Part shown: positions 13,969-46,902 of the stretch, in pieces
How positions within the stretch are numbered: position 1 is the first letter of the stretch
How the letters are laid out: each line of letters starts with the position of its first letter
Assembly (NCBI RefSeq): GCF_004681125.1
Contig: NZ_SIHO01000001.1
Location: 186,001 to 250,000 of the forward strand
From: Glacieibacterium arshaanense
GTDB lineage: Bacteria; Pseudomonadota; Alphaproteobacteria; Sphingomonadales; Sphingomonadaceae
Length of the DNA stretch: 64,000 nucleotides
Reading direction: 5' to 3'
Position numbers and translations under genes: made by a program
Notes under the pieces: generated by a model
What the model saw: the letters and a program-made list of their open reading frames with translations, nothing else
Databases searched by the model: none
What the model was told of the DNA's origin: nothing

Positions 13969-16161
13969 TTAGCGCAGCAGCTGCAGGACCTGTTGCTGCG
14001 ACTGGTTGGCCTGTGCCAGCATCGCCTGTGCCGCCTGGCTGAGCACCTGCGACTTGGCGAGGTTGGTGGTTTCGGCCGAGAAGTCGGCATCGATGATCCG
14101 CGACCGCGACGAGATCAGGTTGGTCGAGGTCGAGCTGAGGTTGTTGACCGTCGCTTCAAGGCGGTTCTGCACCGCACCGAGGTTGGCGCGGTCGAGGCTG
14201 ACCGACGACAGCGCCTCGTCGATTGCGGTCAGCGCCGCGTCGGCGCCTTCCTGCGTCGACAGGTCGATGTCCGCGACCTTCAATCCGCCCTTGTCCGAAC
14301 CATAGCCATTCTGTTCGAAGCCGAGCTTGGTGAAGTTCGACGTCGCGCCGAAACCGAGCGAGCCGGCTTCGATGTCGATGCTTTTCGACGAGGTCAGCGA
14401 CACCGTCGAATACGCCGTCTGCACGGTGTCAGCGCTGTAGATCGTCGTGTCGGCAAGACCGGTCGAGGTATAGGCCGTGCCGGTGCCGCGCTGGGTGATG
14501 TTGCCTAGCCCGAAATTGGCCGCGACCACACCGCCGACGTTGCTGTGGCTGACGCTGATGTTGCGCCCGTCCGCCGCGGTCAGCGACAGCCCGCCCTTGC
14601 CGCTGTCGCTGGCGACGACACCGGTAAGCCCCGAGTATTTGTTGATTTCGGCAGCGACGTTCTGGCGCGTGGCCTGGGCGCTGTCGTTCTGGTCGAGCGT
14701 GATGGCAATCTGCACGCCGTTGATCGCGACGTTGATGGCAACCGTGGAGGCGACCACCGTCGTCGGGGCCGAGCCGTCGAGCGTCAGCGAATCGGCCTTG
14801 GCCGTGACGCCGGTCGCAGCCGTCGACGAATTGATCGCGGCTGCGATGGCGATGGCGCTGCCGGCCTTGTTGCTCGACAGTGCCAGCGTGTCGGAAAAGG
14901 TGTCATCGGCGGCAATGGCGCCGCGGATGGCGGTGCCGTTGATCACCAGATCGCCCGAATTGAGCGAGTAGGCGGTCGCCGACGTCGTGGCGACGGCGCG
15001 GGCATCGGAATTCACCGAAGAGACACCCCGCGCGAACGTGCCTTCGTGCAGCCCCGACCGGGCAATCTGGCCCGACGTCGTCGATGACAGCACGACGGGG
15101 TTGCCGTTCTGCGACACCAGGCTGAAGCTGCCCGACTGCGCGCCGGTCTTGAGGCCCGTCGACGCCGCGGTCAGCGTGCTCAGCGACACGACGATGTTGC
15201 GGCCGTCAGCAGCTTCGAGCCGGATGCCGGCCTTGTCATCGCCGGTGTCGACCGCCTTGACGCCGGTCTGCCCCGACATCAGGTTGATCGCGTCGATGGT
15301 CAGCGTGCGGCTGGCGGCGGCGTTGGTCGTGGTGGTGATCGCTGCCGACGTGAAGCCGTTGATGGTGACTGTGCCGGTCAGCGCCGCACCGGTCATCGAC
15401 GTGCCGGTCATCACCGTCTTGCCGACAACGGCGGTAACGCCGCTCTGGTCGGCGACGCGGTTGATCGCCGCCGCCTTGGCAATTGCCGACGCACCCTTTT
15501 CAGCCGAAGACACGCTGTCGTCCGACGCCGAGGAGGCGCCAACGACGACGCCGTTGATCAGAAGATCGCTGGCGATCAGCGATTCGTTCGCCGACAGGTT
15601 CGATGCGGTCGCCTGGAAGGCGCCGGTGGCGCTGAGGGCGGCGGTAGCGCCGGTGCCGAGATCGGCAGCACGTGCCGAACCGATACCGAAGGTCACGGTC
15701 TCGCCGGCGCGGCTGCCGGTCTGCAGCTGCAGACCCTTGGCGGAGCCGTCGAGCAGTTTGATGCCGTTGAAGTTGGTGCGCGAGCCGACGCTGTCGATTT
15801 CGCCGGTCAGCTGCTTGATTTCGGCCTGCAGCGCCTTGCGGTCATCGCCGGTGACAGTGCCGTTGGCGGCCTGCACGGCGAGTTCGCGCATGCGCTGCAG
15901 CATGTTGGTGACTTCGCCCATCGCGCTTTCAGCGGTCTGCGCCATGCTCATGCCATCGTTGGCATTGCGGATTGCCACCGAAAGACCGCGGACGTCGGCG
16001 GTCATGCGCTGCGAAATCGCGAGGCCGGCGGCATCATCCTTGGCCGAGTTGATGCGCTGGCCGGTCGAAAGCTGCTCCATCGCCATGCTGAGGCCCATCT
16101 GGGCGGTGCGCTGGCCGGCCTGTGCCGTCAGTGCGGAGGTGTTGGTGTTGATAACGGTCAT
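13969..16161 (-). CDS. fliC: Flagellin, enlarged by hook-IN type repeats
   Basis: Structural subunit of the flagellar filament, exported by the flagellar type III system. At 730 residues it is much longer than common alphaproteobacterial flagellins (about 270-500). The N-terminal domain ([20 protein letters not shown]) and C-terminal coiled-coil ([20 protein letters not shown]) are canonical. The middle part repeats a unit with signatures such as [18 protein letters not shown] and AADGRNI(V/S)VS, as in flagellin hook-IN motifs. GGGAGA precedes the ATG. No other flagellar gene is nearby and I found no convincing sigma-28 or sigma-54 promoter. Confidence 0.96.
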
Positions 16162-38101: not shown

Positions 38102-38216
38102 ACCGTCTCCGTTGATTGACGCAGCGCCTACTTGAATGCGACACCTGCGCCAAGCAGAAGTCGCCGCACGGCGGTGCCGTCGCTGTTGCCATGCCGAGGG
38201 GGAGGACGAAGCCACC

Positions 38217-40301
38217 GTGTTGACCGACGTCGGACTGTTCAGTCACACCGTCGCAGCGCTGGGCTTTGGCGCGCTGGCGGTGGTGCTGCTGACCCGGCGC
38301 GCGCAGAGCGGCACCAGCCTGTGGCTGATTGCCGCGTCGCTGGTCACTATGGTCTGGGCATTGGTCGTCGTGCTTGCCGAACGTCGTGGCGGTGGCTGGC
38401 AGCTTTTGGCGTCGCCAGCCGAGACACTGCGCTCGGCGGCGTGGATCGCCTTCCTGCTGGCGGTGCTGCGGCGCAGCTGGCGGCTCGATGAGCGGCGACG
38501 CTCGACGTTTCTGATTGCCAGCCTGCTCGGCTTTGTCGTGGCGCTGCAACTGCTGCTCGATATTGTCTGGGCACTCGGCGTCGTGCCGATCGCCAACCAG
38601 CCGCTGCTCGCCTCGACGCTGGTCATCAGCCGCATGGCGATGGCAATTGCCGGACTGGTGATGCTGCACAATCTGTTCGTCAACGCCGACCCCGAAAGCC
38701 AGGGCGAAGTCCGGCTGCTGTGCATCGGTCTGGCAGGCGTTTTCGCTTATGATCTTAACTACTACACGCTGATTTTCCTGTTCGGCACACCGTCAGTCGA
38801 TCTCTACAACATCCGTGGTGCTGTCGACGTCATCGTGGTGCCGTTGCTGCTGGTGTCGTCGAACCAGAACTGGGCGTCGCGCGTCCATGTCTCGCGGCAA
38901 GTGGTCTTCCATTCGTTGTCGTTCAGCATGATCGGTGTCTATCTGATCGCGATGGCGACGGCGGCCTATGGCCTGCGCCTTGTCGGCGGCGACTGGGGCC
39001 GGCTGCTGCAGATCACCTTCCTGTTTGCGATGGTGTTGCTCGCGGTAGTGGTGCTGGTGTCGCCGCGCTTCCGGGCGTGGTTGCGGGTGCTGATTGCCAA
39101 GAACTTCTTCGCCTACAAGTATGACTATCGGCAGGAGTGGCTGCGCTTCATCTCGACCGTGGCAGGCGCCGGTGCCGGGTTGGGCAGCCTGTCCGAACGC
39201 GTCATCCGCGGCGTCTGCACCGTCGTCGACTCCCCTGGCGGTGTGCTGTTCACGCTGGACGGCGAGGGCAATTATGCTGTCGCTGCGACATGGCGCTTCG
39301 ACGGCTTTACCGCGGCGCCGCTGTCGGCGGACGGTGCGCTGCCCGGCTTTCTGGCCAACCGCCAGCGCATCATCGACCTTGACGAATTACGCGCCGGCAG
39401 CGGCGACTATGGCGCGGTGCGCTTGCCACCCTGGGCCGCGACCGACACGCGCGCTTGGCTGATCGTGCCGCTCACCCATCTTGAACGCCTCGAAGGCTTT
39501 CTGCTGATCGAGCGCACGCTGGTCGCGCGTGCGCTCAACTGGGAAGACTTTGACTTGTTGCGCACGCTCGGGCGCCAGGCCGCGAGCTATATCGCCGAGG
39601 CGGCAAGCCAGGAAGCGCTCGACGAGGCCGGCAAGTTCGACGAATTCAACCGGCGCTTCGCGTTCATCATGCACGACCTCAAGAATCTGGTCAGCCAATT
39701 GTCGCTGGTGGCGCGCAACGCCGAGCGCCATTCCGATAATCCGGCGTTCCGTGCTGATATGGTGGCGACGCTGCAAAGCTCGGTTGGCAAGATGAACGAC
39801 CTGCTGGCGCGGCTGTCGCAGCGCGAGATCAGCAAGGGCGACGGCGTTACGGTGCTCGATGTCGACAAGCTCGTTGCCGAGGTCGTTGCGGCGAAAAAGC
39901 CCGGCTATCCGCAGCTGGAACTGACGCCGTCGGGCAAGCCGGTCGAGGTTTCCGGCGACGGCGCCCAGCTCGAGCAGATGTTCGCGCACCTGATCCAGAA
40001 TGCCATCGATGCCAGCGTCGATGCGACGGCAGTCACCGTCAGCGTGGCGAGCGGCGCCGACGAAGTGGCGATTGCCGTTGCCGATCAGGGTGTCGGCATG
40101 ACACCAGCGTTCCTGCGCAATGATTTGTTCCGGCCGTTTCATTCGACCAAGCCCGGCGGTTTCGGTATTGGGGCCTATGAAGCACGAACAATCGTGCGCA
40201 ACATGGGCGGGCAACTTGATGTCGCCAGCACACCGGGTGAAGGGACTGTATTTACCGTGCGATTGCCGATCCATCACGCAGTCGGGAGAATAGCCTCGTG
40301 A
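38217..40301 (+). CDS. prsK: PEP-CTERM system histidine kinase PrsK
   Basis: A 694-residue sensor kinase of the XrtA/PEP-CTERM regulatory pair. About eight N-terminal membrane helices (1-300) are followed by a GAF-like domain (about 320-460), a dimerisation domain with phosphoacceptor His in FIMHDLKNLVSQLSLV, and an ATPase domain ending in FRPFHSTKPGGFGIGAYEA, a PrsK hallmark. I chose the GTG at 38217 because GGGGGAGGA lies just upstream; the frame opens at 38136. It overlaps prsR by four bases. Confidence 0.92.
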   Translation: MLTDVGLFSHTVAALGFGALAVVLLTRRAQSGTSLWLIAASLVTMVWALVVVLAERRGGGWQLLASPAETLRSAAWIAFLLAVLRRSWRLDERRRSTFLIASLLGFVVALQLLLDIVWALGVVPIANQPLLASTLVISRMAMAIAGLVMLHNLFVNADPESQGEVRLLCIGLAGVFAYDLNYYTLIFLFGTPSVDLYNIRGAVDVIVVPLLLVSSNQNWASRVHVSRQVVFHSLSFSMIGVYLIAMATAAYGLRLVGGDWGRLLQITFLFAMVLLAVVVLVSPRFRAWLRVLIAKNFFAYKYDYRQEWLRFISTVAGAGAGLGSLSERVIRGVCTVVDSPGGVLFTLDGEGNYAVAATWRFDGFTAAPLSADGALPGFLANRQRIIDLDELRAGSGDYGAVRLPPWAATDTRAWLIVPLTHLERLEGFLLIERTLVARALNWEDFDLLRTLGRQAASYIAEAASQEALDEAGKFDEFNRRFAFIMHDLKNLVSQLSLVARNAERHSDNPAFRADMVATLQSSVGKMNDLLARLSQREISKGDGVTVLDVDKLVAEVVAAKKPGYPQLELTPSGKPVEVSGDGAQLEQMFAHLIQNAIDASVDATAVTVSVASGADEVAIAVADQGVGMTPAFLRNDLFRPFHSTKPGGFGIGAYEARTIVRNMGGQLDVASTPGEGTVFTVRLPIHHAVGRIAS

Positions 40302-41662
40302 GCGAGGACAACCTGCGTCCTAAATTGCTCGTTGTCGAAGATGACGAAGGGCTGCAGCGCCAGTTGCGCTGGGCGTATGAAGACTATGACGTGACCATTG
40401 CCGGCGACCGCGAATCGGCGATTGCGGCGCTGCACGCGATCGAGCCGCCGGTGGTGACGCTCGATCTCGGCCTGCCGCCCGACCCCGATGGCACTAGCGA
40501 GGGATTCGCGACGCTCGAGGAAATCATGGCGCTGCGCCCCAACACCAAGGTCATTGTCGCGTCGGGCCACGGAGCCCGCGAAAGCGCGCTCGGCGCCATC
40601 GCCAAGGGGGCGTTCGATTTCTACCAGAAGCCCGTCGATATCGACGAGCTCGGCCACATTGTCCGCCGCGCGATGCACGTCCACGCGCTCGAGGAGGAAA
40701 ACCGCCGGCTGCAACGCGCCGCGACCGGCGAGGGCGTCGTCGGCGGCATTATCACCGGTGCGCCTGAAATGCTTAAGGTCGCGCGGATGATCGAGCGAGT
40801 CGCCAGCGCCGACGTCTCGGTGATGCTGCTTGGCGCCAGCGGTACCGGCAAGGAATTGCTCGCCAAGGGGCTGCACGACAATTCGCTGCGTGAAAAGGGC
40901 CCGTTCATCGCCATCAACTGCGCGGCGATCCCTGAAACTTTGCTCGAATCCGAACTGTTCGGCTATGAAAAGGGCGCGTTCACCGGCGCCGTCAAGTCGA
41001 TGGAGGGCAAGATCGAGCGCGCCGAGGGCGGCACGCTATTCCTTGATGAAGTTGGCGATATCCCGTTGCCGCTGCAGGTCAAGCTGCTGCGCTTCCTGCA
41101 GGAACGCGTCATCGAACGCATCGGCGGCCGGCGGCCGATTCCTGTCGATGTCCGCATTATCTGCGCGACGCACCAAAACCTCGAAGCGATGATCACCGCC
41201 GGATCATTCCGTGAGGATCTCTACTATCGCCTCGCCGAAATCGTCGTGCGCATCCCGTCGCTTGCCGAACGCCAGGGCGATGCCGAACTGCTCGCGCACC
41301 ACTTCCTTAGCAAGTTCGCACGCGAACATCGCCGGCAGATCAAGGGCTTTACTCCTGCCGCACTGGCGAAAATCGCCGACTGGCCGTGGCCGGGCAATGT
41401 CCGTGAACTCGAAAACCGCATCAAGCGCGCGGTCATCATGGCCGAAGGTAGCCGGCTGACTCCCGACGACCTCGATCTCGGCAGCGGCGACGAGGAAAGC
41501 ACCTCACTCAACCTCAAGCGCGTCCGCGAAATCGCCGAGCGCCGCGCCATCGAGCAGGCCATCGCGCGGTCTGAAGGCAATATCTCGCTGACCGCCAAGC
41601 TGCTCGGGATCAGCCGTCCGACGCTGTATTACATGCTCAAGGACCACGGCCTCGAAGCCTGA
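40298..41662 (+). CDS. prsR: PEP-CTERM system sigma-54-dependent response regulator PrsR
   Basis: A 454-residue activator with a receiver domain (LLVVEDDEG, phospho-acceptor Asp in [12 protein letters not shown]), a sigma-54 AAA+ domain (Walker [15 protein letters not shown] loop in [15 protein letters not shown]) and a C-terminal Fis-type helix-turn-helix ([17 protein letters not shown]). The GTG start overlaps the prsK stop (GTGA). In related bacteria PrsK/PrsR activate genes for PEP-CTERM proteins and exopolysaccharide, so an exosortase locus should exist elsewhere in this genome. Confidence 0.94.
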
Positions 41663-41738: not shown

Positions 41739-41815
41739 CGGAGCGTGGCGCAGCCTGGTAGCGCATTAGACTGGGGGTCTAAGGGTCGCAGGTTCGAATC
41801 CTGTCGCTCCGACCA
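41739..41815 (+). tRNA. tRNA-Pro(GGG)
   Basis: Acceptor arms CGGAGCG and CGCTCCG with discriminator A and an encoded CCA. The anticodon stem is TTAGA/TCTAA, with loop CTGGGGG giving anticodon GGG. The T-arm contains GGTTCGAATCC. Its 3' end lies 21 bases from the o-spanin stop codon. I did not find a second copy of the tRNA 3' end on the far side of the lysis cassette. Confidence 0.97.
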
Positions 41816-41836: not shown

Positions 41837-42082
41837 TCAGCGCGGCCAGGCTTCGACGGCTACCCGCCGCCGTGCGTCGCAATCGACATAGAGCGCGGTC
41901 ACTTCGCTGACCCACGTCACCGCCTCACCCGCGGTCGTGAACATCCGCGGCAGTGGCGCACAGGCGATGCGGCTCTCAGCGGGCGGCGGCGACAGCGGCA
42001 TTGGCGGCGTCGATACTCGCCTGCCCGATGTGCACGCCGACAGCATCAGGGCAAGCAGTGGCAGCAGCGGGACTTTGGACAT
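41837..42082 (-). CDS. o-spanin (Rz1-like outer-membrane lipoprotein)
   Basis: An 81-residue lipoprotein whose ATG at 42082 lies inside the i-spanin gene in another frame, with 107 bases shared. The signal ends in the lipobox LSAC (Cys 17). It is followed by a proline-rich stretch (PPMPLSPPPAES) typical of Rz1 proteins. Out-of-frame nesting with a coiled-coil membrane protein is the classic Rz/Rz1 arrangement, in which the pair fuses inner and outer membranes during lysis. Assignment rests on architecture, since spanins show little sequence conservation. Confidence 0.8.
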   Translation of the reverse strand: MSKVPLLPLLALMLSACTSGRRVSTPPMPLSPPPAESRIACAPLPRMFTTAGEAVTWVSEVTALYVDCDARRRVAVEAWPR

Positions 42083-42365
42083 AGCGGATGACCTCCTGGG
42101 CGATGGGTTTGCGGGCGTCGGCATAGCGGCGCGCACGTTCGGACGCGGCGACCAGTGCCGCCTCGCGTTGCGCGGTGCGCGTTTGTGCCTGCGCGATGGC
42201 GGCGGCAGCAGCGCGGGCGGCACGCGCCTGCCATATCTGCCGTTCGGCCAGCGCGCCGCGCTGTTCGGCCGCGTGATTGAACCAGACGAGCGCGGCTATC
42301 GCGAGCACCCCCGCCGCCAGCGGCTTCCAGTGGCGCAGCAGCGAGTCGATCAGCAGCGCGTTCAT
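41976..42365 (-). CDS. i-spanin (Rz-like)
   Basis: A 129-residue type II membrane protein. One N-terminal helix (PLAAGVLAIAALVWF, residues about 14-30) is followed by a long Ala/Arg/Gln-rich periplasmic coiled coil (RAARAAAAAIAQAQTRTAQR), as in phage Rz proteins. Its start overlaps the stop of the upstream small membrane protein gene by four bases. Its 3' part contains the start of the o-spanin gene. Confidence 0.8.
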   Translation of the reverse strand: MNALLIDSLLRHWKPLAAGVLAIAALVWFNHAAEQRGALAERQIWQARAARAAAAAIAQAQTRTAQREAALVAASERARRYADARKPIAQEVIRYVQSPAAATACPDAVGVHIGQASIDAANAAVAAAR

Positions 42366-42634
42366 TGTGGTGCCCCGTCAGCCGGCGGCGTGGGCACGTC
42401 GGGCTCGGTGGTTTCCTTGAGCTTGGTCGCGACTGCGCCGCTGGTGTTGGCGATGCCGAGCGCACCGGCGAGCTCGGTCAAACTGACCGGCAGGCCCTTG
42501 AATGTCGCTGCCGCCGCCGTGCCGATGATCGCCAGATTTGCGAGCAGCCAGGCATGGCGCGCCAGATCGGGGGTGCTGTTGTCCTTGCCGCTGAGCAGTT
42601 GTTGCGCCCAGCGTCGCATCTGCGTGCCACTCAT
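42362..42634 (-). CDS. Small membrane protein in the holin position
   Basis: A 90-residue protein with one clear hydrophobic stretch (AWLLANLAIIGTAAAATF), a second weaker one (LTELAGALGIANTSGAVA), and a charged, Pro-rich C-terminus. It overlaps the endolysin gene upstream and the i-spanin gene downstream by four bases each. Position and hydropathy suggest a holin, which would release or activate the endolysin. No holin family signature is recognisable, so the function is inferred from gene order. Confidence 0.6.
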   Translation of the reverse strand: MSGTQMRRWAQQLLSGKDNSTPDLARHAWLLANLAIIGTAAAATFKGLPVSLTELAGALGIANTSGAVATKLKETTEPDVPTPPADGAPQ

Positions 42635-43080
42635 GCTGCGGTCCGGTACAGCGCGGCTTCGGCAGCGCGGCGGCGCGACAGGCCGGCCAGCACGACCTTG
42701 CCCTGGCGGTTCCAGCGCGCGAACTGCGCGGCTGCCCCGGTGAAATCGCCAGCGCGGTGCAGCGCCAGCAGCGTCGAGCGCGCCAGCGCGGTCGCGCCTA
42801 GATTATAAGCAAAGCTGACCAGCGCATCGAATTGCGGCTGGCTGGTGGGCGCACCTGCGACGGCGCGACCGACTTCGCGCGCCAGCGCCAGCAGCTGGTC
42901 GTTGAACACCGCATCGGCGTGCGCTTGCGTCCACACCTGCCCGATGCGGATGCGTGTGCCGTCGCTGTCGCGCGTGCTGCCCCAGCCGATGGTCGGGACG
43001 TCGTCAGGCGTCGGCAGATAGGCTTGCAACCGGCACTGTTCGAACGCCTTGATCAGCGCGATGCCGGTCGTCGACGGCAT
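42631..43080 (-). CDS. Phage-type lysozyme (endolysin, GH24)
   Basis: A 149-residue muramidase of the T4/P21 lysozyme family. The N-terminus GIALIKAFEQCRLQAY carries the catalytic Glu (residue 14), followed by PTIGWGST and the family segment FDALVSFAYNLGATAL. There is no signal-anchor sequence at the N-terminus, so release would need a holin. It is the first gene of the four-gene cassette, about 75 bases after the probable transcription start. A frame extending to 43264 crosses the promoter and is not the gene. Confidence 0.92.
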   Translation of the reverse strand: MPSTTGIALIKAFEQCRLQAYLPTPDDVPTIGWGSTRDSDGTRIRIGQVWTQAHADAVFNDQLLALAREVGRAVAGAPTSQPQFDALVSFAYNLGATALARSTLLALHRAGDFTGAAAQFARWNRQGKVVLAGLSRRRAAEAALYRTAA

Positions 43081-43138
43081 CCGGAAAGCTGCCGACGTGC
43101 GATTGGTTCGCGTGGGGGGAATGGGAATCGAAATGACG

Positions 43139-43191
43139 CACCTCTTCGTTCTGAGGTGGCATCATATATCCAAATTGGTTATTTATGTCAA
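43139..43191 (-). promoter_or_regulatory. Sigma-70-like promoter and dyads driving the lysis cassette
   Basis: On the minus strand TTGACA (43186-43191) is separated by exactly 17 bases from TATATG (43163-43168), a near-consensus promoter. The spacer holds the palindrome CCAATTTGG. A second dyad, CACCTC-N8-GAGGTG (43139-43158), covers the expected transcription start. The -35 box overlaps the stop codon of the carbonic anhydrase gene. The dyads suggest repressor control. No alphaproteobacterial LexA box (GTTC-N7-GTTC type) is visible. Confidence 0.72.
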
Positions 43192-43706
43192 GCGAATTCA
43201 CGTTTATGGCGTTGTGCCAACTCGACATAGCCCGCTGCACCGGCGCGGTTGCGGGCAATATCATCGGGTTTCAGGTCGCGCAGATACACCGCCGGCCGCC
43301 CGGCCCACAGCTGTCCCGCCGGGATGCGCTTGCCCGGTGTCAGCAACGCGCCAGCCGCCAGCATCGCATCGGCTTCGATGACGCAGCCGTCCATAACGAT
43401 CGCACCAAGCCCGACGAATGAATGATCCTCCAGCGTGCAGCCGTGGATCATCGCGAGGTGGCCGATCAGGCAGTCTTCGCCGATCACCGTGTTGAATTTG
43501 CCGCCGGTGACATGGACGACGCTGCCGTCCTGGATGTTGGTACGCGCGCCGATGGTGATGGCACCGACGTCGCCGCGCACGACGCAATTGTACCAGATGC
43601 TCGCGCGCGCCCCGATGGTCACATGGCCGATGATCCGGGCGCCGGATGCGACGAACGCATCTGCCGCGATATCCGGCGCGACGCCGTTGAAAGCTATGAT
43701 GGTCAT
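43188..43706 (-). CDS. Gamma-class carbonic anhydrase family protein
   Basis: A 172-residue left-handed beta-helix protein with hexapeptide repeats. The zinc-ligand pattern is visible in SVVHVTGGKFNTVIGE and IGHLAMIHGCTLED. The family catalyses CO2 hydration or acts as an acyltransferase-like scaffold (PaaY/YrdA group). The start is the ATG at 43706; upstream coding in the open frame is repeat copy 4. It is downstream of the hemB-argC-GNAT-GNAT genes and directly upstream of the lysis cassette promoter. Confidence 0.9.
   Translation of the reverse strand: MTIIAFNGVAPDIAADAFVASGARIIGHVTIGARASIWYNCVVRGDVGAITIGARTNIQDGSVVHVTGGKFNTVIGEDCLIGHLAMIHGCTLEDHSFVGLGAIVMDGCVIEADAMLAAGALLTPGKRIPAGQLWAGRPAVYLRDLKPDDIARNRAGAAGYVELAQRHKREFA

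Positions 43707-44866: not shown

Positions 44867-44870
<4 letters not shown>
44346..44870 (-). CDS. GNAT N-acetyltransferase (RimJ/RimL-like), paralogue
   Basis: A 174-residue acetyltransferase closely similar in layout to the next gene (ASWGQGYATEAARASLGWGF, TTVANLPSQRVMQRTGM). The start is the GTG at 44870 (VIETARLRIRP), which overlaps the argC stop as GTGA; the longer frame belongs to argC. The tandem pair after argC looks like a gene duplication. No role in arginine synthesis can be claimed from sequence. Confidence 0.85.

Positions 44871-46902
<2,032 letters not shown>

Follow-up and report, generated by a model that had tools for sequence, protein, structure and literature searches.

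A phage-type lysis cassette in Glacieibacterium arshaanense occupies a chromosomal slot that holds gene transfer agent lysis genes in related genera

The DNA analysed here, referred to as the window, is a 64,000-nucleotide stretch of the Glacieibacterium arshaanense genome (G000; 99.97% complete). Its minus strand carries, from 43080 to 41837, four overlapping genes for a GH24 endolysin, a holin-like protein, Rz, and the lipoprotein Rz1. A first-pass annotation had placed a lysis unit at 41837–43191; its four genes were recovered, but they end at 43080, and 43081–43187 is upstream DNA. The overlaps of four bases or more that it described were confirmed, with 4 nt between the endolysin and holin candidate genes, 4 nt between the holin candidate and Rz genes, and 107 nt between the Rz and Rz1 genes.

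The endolysin (42631–43080, minus strand; 149 aa) is a phage-type lysozyme of the GH24 family, as indicated by matches to PF00959 (3.7e-35) and phrog_7 (7e-52). Its similarity to solved phage-type lysozymes (best 7.4e-27) identifies it, at the sequence level, as a muralytic enzyme. The catalytic residues of such lysozymes usually follow an E-8-D-5-T spacing. In the comparison with the solved lysozymes, E14 and T30 are present and the Asp column falls within LPTPDD. The PTxDD motif was also seen in the endolysins of two phage-like loci, L131 and L137, described below. Neither a signal nor a SAR segment was visible by eye. The next gene (42362–42634, minus strand) encodes a 90-aa protein with three helices predicted by AlphaFold2 (residues 3–15, 21–45, and 52–75, one short and two long; mean pLDDT 74). 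The structure alignment comprised 22 rows, with others, such as L122, omitted. The Pfam-type and PHROG profiles gave no holin family match or other convincing family match. By its position, predicted helices, and phage kin, the protein is a holin candidate; the earlier description of a small membrane protein in the holin position thus stands on these features, but not on a family assignment.

The third gene (41976–42365, minus strand) encodes an Rz-type i-spanin of 129 aa, which matched phrog_2536 (3.8e-7) and, more weakly, three further Rz families, and which has a single hydrophobic segment, located N-terminally in the hydropathy profile. The fourth (41837–42082, minus strand) encodes an Rz1-type o-spanin lipoprotein of 81 aa with the lipobox LSAC, which matched PF23793 LysC (7e-5, under the family cut-off) and phrog_456 (1e-5). 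We chose its start at 42082, an ATG after AGGAGG, within an open frame beginning at 42223. The Rz1 gene starts inside the Rz gene and ends 139 nt beyond the Rz stop, indicating that the two are staggered. The o-spanin had been annotated as nested and out of frame; the overlap was found, but not the nesting. An i-spanin with an overlapping lipoprotein constitutes the spanin pair of a phage lysis cassette. The profile matches bear out the first identification of the endolysin and both spanins, and we regard the four genes as real.

The neighbours named in the first-pass annotation, a carbonic anhydrase gene and tRNA-Pro, were both confirmed. Upstream of the cassette lie the gene for a gamma-carbonic-anhydrase-like hexapeptide protein (43188–43706, minus strand; PF00132 above the cut-off, NF050158 at 6.5e-45 below it), GNAT-type genes, and the conserved flanking genes argC (44867–45904, minus strand; TIGR01850) and hemB (45901–46893, minus strand; NF006762). 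The other side carries tRNA-Pro(GGG) (41739–41815, plus strand; tRNA scan), which we used as the landmark of the locus, and two further conserved flanking genes, prsR for a PEP-CTERM response regulator (40298–41662, plus strand; TIGR02915, 1.7e-201) and prsK for an XrtA/PEP-CTERM histidine kinase (38136–40301, plus strand; TIGR02916, 8.8e-193). Elsewhere in the window, a long gene (13969–16161; 730 aa) matches flagellin models.

The upstream region (43081–43187, read on the minus strand) contains a hairpin and most of a TTGACA/TATATG pair. We rejected this pair as a promoter: it was picked by eye, its TTGACA (43191–43186, 17 nt ahead of TATATG) shares the stop codon of the carbonic anhydrase gene, TATATG reads TACATG in the congener G002, and a promoter scan of the region returned zero sites. 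The hairpin, at about 43139–43158 before the endolysin gene, has arms identical in G002 and two differing loop bases, and was likewise rejected as a notable fold (z = −1.59; 15 of 200 shuffles equally stable); it could be an operator, a terminator, or a leader.

tRNA genes are common insertion sites, and the 3' end of tRNA-Pro faces the cassette. A search of the window with the 25-mer of this end returned only the tRNA itself, and the 13-mer with up to two mismatches gave 6 hits versus 3.2 expected, a number reached in 12 of 100 shuffles. Phage integration at tRNA-Pro was rejected for want of a convincing repeat in the window. No phage block was visible by eye in rough gene calls of the 64 kb, and none of the seven tRNA-Pro loci inspected in relatives showed a prophage by eye.

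The endolysin and the holin-like protein have phage kin, as judged by sequence comparison. In a tree whose bootstrap had not settled according to the program's warning, the endolysin grouped with those of the viral contig L131 (63% identity) and a Caulobacter MAG locus, L137 (57%), with support of 97/91; 31 rows from the relatives' genomes formed a separate clade (support 100/99). Phage-like genes surround the endolysin gene of L137. On L131, the endolysin gene is followed, with a 4-nt overlap, by a gene for a small membrane protein and then by Rz-like and Rz1-like genes, so named by eye; these last two matched no family named for spanins. Among named phages, the endolysin found 756 records, all less than 60% identical, and the holin candidate none. 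The latter found 176 related stretches in IMG/VR, of which 80 were kept; among the 75 of these with 800 or more downstream bases, 44 have an endolysin within 2 kb, of type GH19 in 33 cases and GH24 in 11. Within the family, the holin candidate was found in 2 of 397 genomes, G000 and G002. Searches for the cassette DNA in phages returned nothing; no Rz match was confirmed in viral contigs, and Rz1 gave one weak partial match in phages.

The relatives also carry chromosomal GH24 genes. Of 20 such loci of 20 kb that were retrieved, 14 (L032, L033, L035–L038, and L040–L047) have a glutamine synthetase gene close to the match, mostly accompanied by what we take to be TamA/TamB-like genes. Most of these glutamine-synthetase-linked rows form one clade, with L003 and L138 outside. 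Such a lysozyme might be the endolysin of a gene transfer agent (GTA) where GTA_holin stands alone.

To assess selection, we compared the congeners G001 and G002 with G000; the three are about equally distant from one another in Rz. In G002 (84% complete, fragmentary), the four genes recur in this position with 0 indels, and a single stretch of 6,035 bases aligned to the window at 91.4% identity. No gap was counted in the cassette, in the 107 bases ahead of it, or in the flanking genes included in the count. On the G002 contig (L031, 8693–9934), the likeness stops inside prsR at window position 40913, through either a rearrangement or an assembly fault. A dN/dS check of the four genes, proposed in the first-pass annotation, gave 0.105 for the endolysin, 0.098 for the holin candidate, and, outside the overlap, 0.153 for Rz and 0.093 for Rz1, alongside values of 0.031, 0.049, 0.066, and 0.13 for four flanking genes. 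The two wrong frames of Rz outside the overlap gave 2.1 and 6.3. The whole-length values were 0.171 (Rz) and 0.219 (Rz1). Inside the overlap, the Rz frame gave 0.26 and the Rz1 frame 1.1, from tiny counts with very wide intervals.

The G001 contig covers prsK, tRNA-Pro, and a complete Rz1 gene (91% identical to the G000 copy) and ends within an open Rz frame. The endolysin and holin candidate genes were not found in this genome, most simply because the contig ends there; their presence beyond it is assumed. With three genomes, changes could be polarised: Rz underwent 11 synonymous and 4 non-synonymous changes on the G000 branch and 11 and 6 on the G002 branch, and the corresponding Rz1 counts were 5 and 6 (3 and 3 outside the overlap) for G000 and 7 and 2 for G002. 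The indel-free copy in G002, the low dN/dS values, and the remainder in G001 indicate a maintained unit and not decay, in agreement with the intact, selected unit first proposed.

We also compared the interval between the carbonic anhydrase gene and tRNA-Pro in relatives, as the first-pass annotation had suggested. Beyond G002, two genomes of other genera carry GTA lysis genes there. G021 (L279) has hemB, argC, carbonic anhydrase, GTA_holin, tRNA-Pro, prsR, and prsK, the order of the window except for the filling; its GTA holin gene has the opposite orientation to the cassette. In G018 (L278), the order is hemB, argC, carbonic anhydrase, GTA_holin, a GH108 endolysin, and tRNA-Pro. By its tRNA-Pro(GGG) and carbonic anhydrase gene, the cassette's slot thus matches that of the RcGTA-type lysis module in sister genera, the exact interval being seen to hold GTA lysis genes in these two genera only. 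In G006 (L227), prsK, prsR, a TPR gene, and tRNA-Pro are followed by GH108 and GTA_holin, and the carbonic anhydrase gene lies elsewhere in the genome. We scanned for tRNAs the best 30 matches to PF11351 (GTA_holin_3TM), plus G090, G091, and G097, chosen because earlier searches had put tRNA-Pro near. Among the best 30 loci, tRNA-Pro(GGG) lies within 1.5 kb in 12 and another tRNA in one; wider stretches of 7.6–19 kb around the same loci include tRNA-Pro(GGG) in 21, and carbonic anhydrase is close to PF11351 in three. In G091 and G097, from another family of the order, tRNA-Pro, an M15 peptidase with GTA_holin, argC, and carbonic anhydrase fall within about 13 and 11 kb, respectively. In G041, the endolysin beside GTA_holin and carbonic anhydrase is phrog_465. 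The occurrence of GH108, phrog_465, and M15 beside the same holin suggests that the holin and its neighbourhood are old and that the endolysin changes. We also compared GH108 beside GTA_holin with any strong GH24 match in the genome (1/8 versus 12/22, p = 0.09), where some of the strong GH24 matches lie in phage-like loci; no relation was established. From the carbonic anhydrase side, the gene was sought in 30 relatives, and 27 of the 30 loci were scanned for tRNAs; none of the 25 scanned loci other than G000 and G002 has a tRNA within 1.5 kb of it. In G013, unrelated genes lie between tRNA-Pro and carbonic anhydrase.

Of 98 relatives, 71 gave a PF11351 match; the three congeners gave none. 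The first-pass annotation had also proposed a genome search for GTA head-tail genes; in G000, no match was found for DUF2460, the HK97 capsid PF05065, or Terminase_6N PF03237. G002 likewise gave no DUF2460 or Terminase_6N match, in an 84% complete assembly, and one short PF05065 piece at a contig edge that by eye is unlike a GTA capsid and resembles another phage. In G001, an RcGTA-like capsid (Rcc01687, 1.5e-85), terminase, and DUF2460 are all present. With this capsid as the query, matches were obtained in 72 of the 98 relatives and in neither G000 nor G002. Cross-tabulation, with counts made by hand, matches of at most 32% identity (G013, G047, and G095) scored as absent, and those of at least 38%, some of which may be phage capsids, scored as present, gave 60 genomes with both capsid and PF11351, 9 with capsid only, 11 with PF11351 only, and 18 with neither (Fisher p = 2e-6, kinship ignored). 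This co-occurrence supports PF11351 as a GTA lysis gene here. GTA_TIM (PF13547) was discarded as a GTA marker: it was matched in none of 40 relatives, and is uninformative because it is missing even from genomes with a GTA capsid.

Six family genomes at least 95% complete (G030, G031, G035, G036, G039, and G058, the last with capsids only 41–42% identical) have a capsid match without PF11351; its absence is therefore not special to the cassette-bearing genus. Conversely, GTA_holin occurs in 11 of the 29 relatives counted as capsid-less, for example G004, G016, G022, G042, and G050, as well as G005, which has DUF2460. GTA lysis genes may therefore outlive the GTA in several lineages.

We consider it probable that the ancestor of this Polymorphobacter-type genus had its RcGTA-like GTA lysis module displaced in place by a complete phage lysis cassette. 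The slot from tRNA-Pro(GGG) to carbonic anhydrase, argC, and hemB would be an old home of GTA_holin_3TM and a changeable endolysin, now occupied by the four cassette genes on the opposite strand. In phage lysis, a holin opens the inner membrane, an endolysin cuts the wall, and spanins breach the outer membrane; the holin candidate, the GH24 endolysin acting on peptidoglycan, and Rz–Rz1 would take these three parts here. In the GTA-bearing congener G001, the cassette would free GTA particles, and we infer from its position that it does so in GTA-bearing members of the genus generally. Position therefore favours the GTA role first proposed, as G021 and G018 have a GTA holin in this interval, and the capsid, terminase, and DUF2460 of G001 support it at the genus level. 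The role is not demonstrable as current in G000 and G002, neither of which gave a GTA match. In these two species, the cassette may be kept for lysis that no longer depends on the particle, or for a function so far unrecognised; alternatively, GTA loss in G000 may be too recent for decay to show. More tentatively, the slot could be a plug-in site, with the GTA lost in some species and the cassette kept as a free-standing, selected suicide-lysis system.

A GTA-independent system of programmed lysis, releasing DNA, vesicles, or enzymes, either kept as such later or recruited for it from the start, would make the place beside tRNA-Pro coincidental to GTA biology. We regard this as doubtful, although purifying selection acts between two species that yielded no GTA gene, the polarised Rz changes are mainly synonymous on both branches, and GTA_holin itself persists in relatives counted as capsid-less. 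Against it, other genera have their GTA lysis slot at this locus, the selection could go back to ancestors that still carried the GTA, and the Rz1 changes on the G000 branch give no sign of strong selection there.

That the cassette is instead the decaying remnant of a prophage integrated at tRNA-Pro, with only the lysis genes left, appears very improbable. The tRNA 3' end does face the cassette, and two of its proteins are phage-like, but the unit is common to two species with no indels and low dN/dS, the window holds no convincing repeat of the tRNA end, capsid and terminase (sought as PF05065 and PF03237 only) and the contractile sheath PF04984 went unmatched in G000, and the seven tRNA-Pro loci inspected by eye showed no prophage. 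The outcome that the first-pass annotation had named as refuting, a prophage at this tRNA in relatives together with relaxed selection, was accordingly not seen. Pyocin-type systems use phage-type lysis genes, so this unit could in principle serve a tailocin whose genes lie at another genomic site, as the annotation had also suggested; the missing sheath match, which covers the contractile type only, speaks against this and leaves it a slim chance. Equally slight is the prospect that a silent cassette fires upon phage infection as a suicide unit. This idea draws on an analogy with Caulobacter, where immune-like parts serve GTA release according to one report (PMC13236601), but the cassette lacks a sensor gene.

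The cassette resembles RcGTA rcc00555/rcc00556 and their Sphingomonadales counterparts in that the lysis genes lie apart from a structural cluster, and it shares its slot with the modules of G021 and G018 and its tRNA-Pro with that of G006. It differs from the RcGTA module in having no homologous protein, a GH24 endolysin, another small membrane protein, an added Rz/Rz1 pair, and the opposite strand. Gene content and overlaps are those of lambda/P22-type holin–endolysin–spanin cassettes, but no phage genes surround it and congeners share it at one chromosomal place. The BaGTA endolysin BgtA (NF058676) is likewise a GH24-type endolysin of a GTA; the cassette endolysin matched this model (1.9e-25), but is not of the BgtA family, as its 89.7 bits fall far short of the cut-off, 315. 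In R. capsulatus, GafA acting with CtrA drives the separate lysis cassette (PMC6363796 and PMC9638019); when rcc00555 was disrupted, gene transfer fell and particles stayed inside the cells (Hynes 2012, as cited in PMC3423380). In Caulobacter crescentus, according to a 2026 report (PMC13236601), LypABC is required for GTA release, and canonical holin–endolysin genes were not found. There, too, a GTA of the same lineage has its holin–endolysin lysis replaced by something else, immune-like control genes in Caulobacter as against a phage-type cassette here. We found no description of a GTA lysis module being replaced by a phage cassette in the titles and opening abstract lines of the open-licence papers listed on the subject.

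How GTAs leave cells outside Rhodobacter is largely open. The recurrent slot, with its constant GTA holin and an endolysin of GH108, M15, or phrog_465 type, could be used to trace the lysis step through the Sphingomonadales, and the genomes with a capsid and no PF11351 (G030, G031, G035, G036, and G039) are places to look for other lysis solutions. In one genus, the GTA lysis slot was probably refilled with a whole phage cassette. If the tentative plug-in reading is true, lysis, and not gene transfer, would be the trait under selection; and if selection keeps the cassette after the GTA is lost, a benefit of altruistic lysis beyond gene transfer would become testable.
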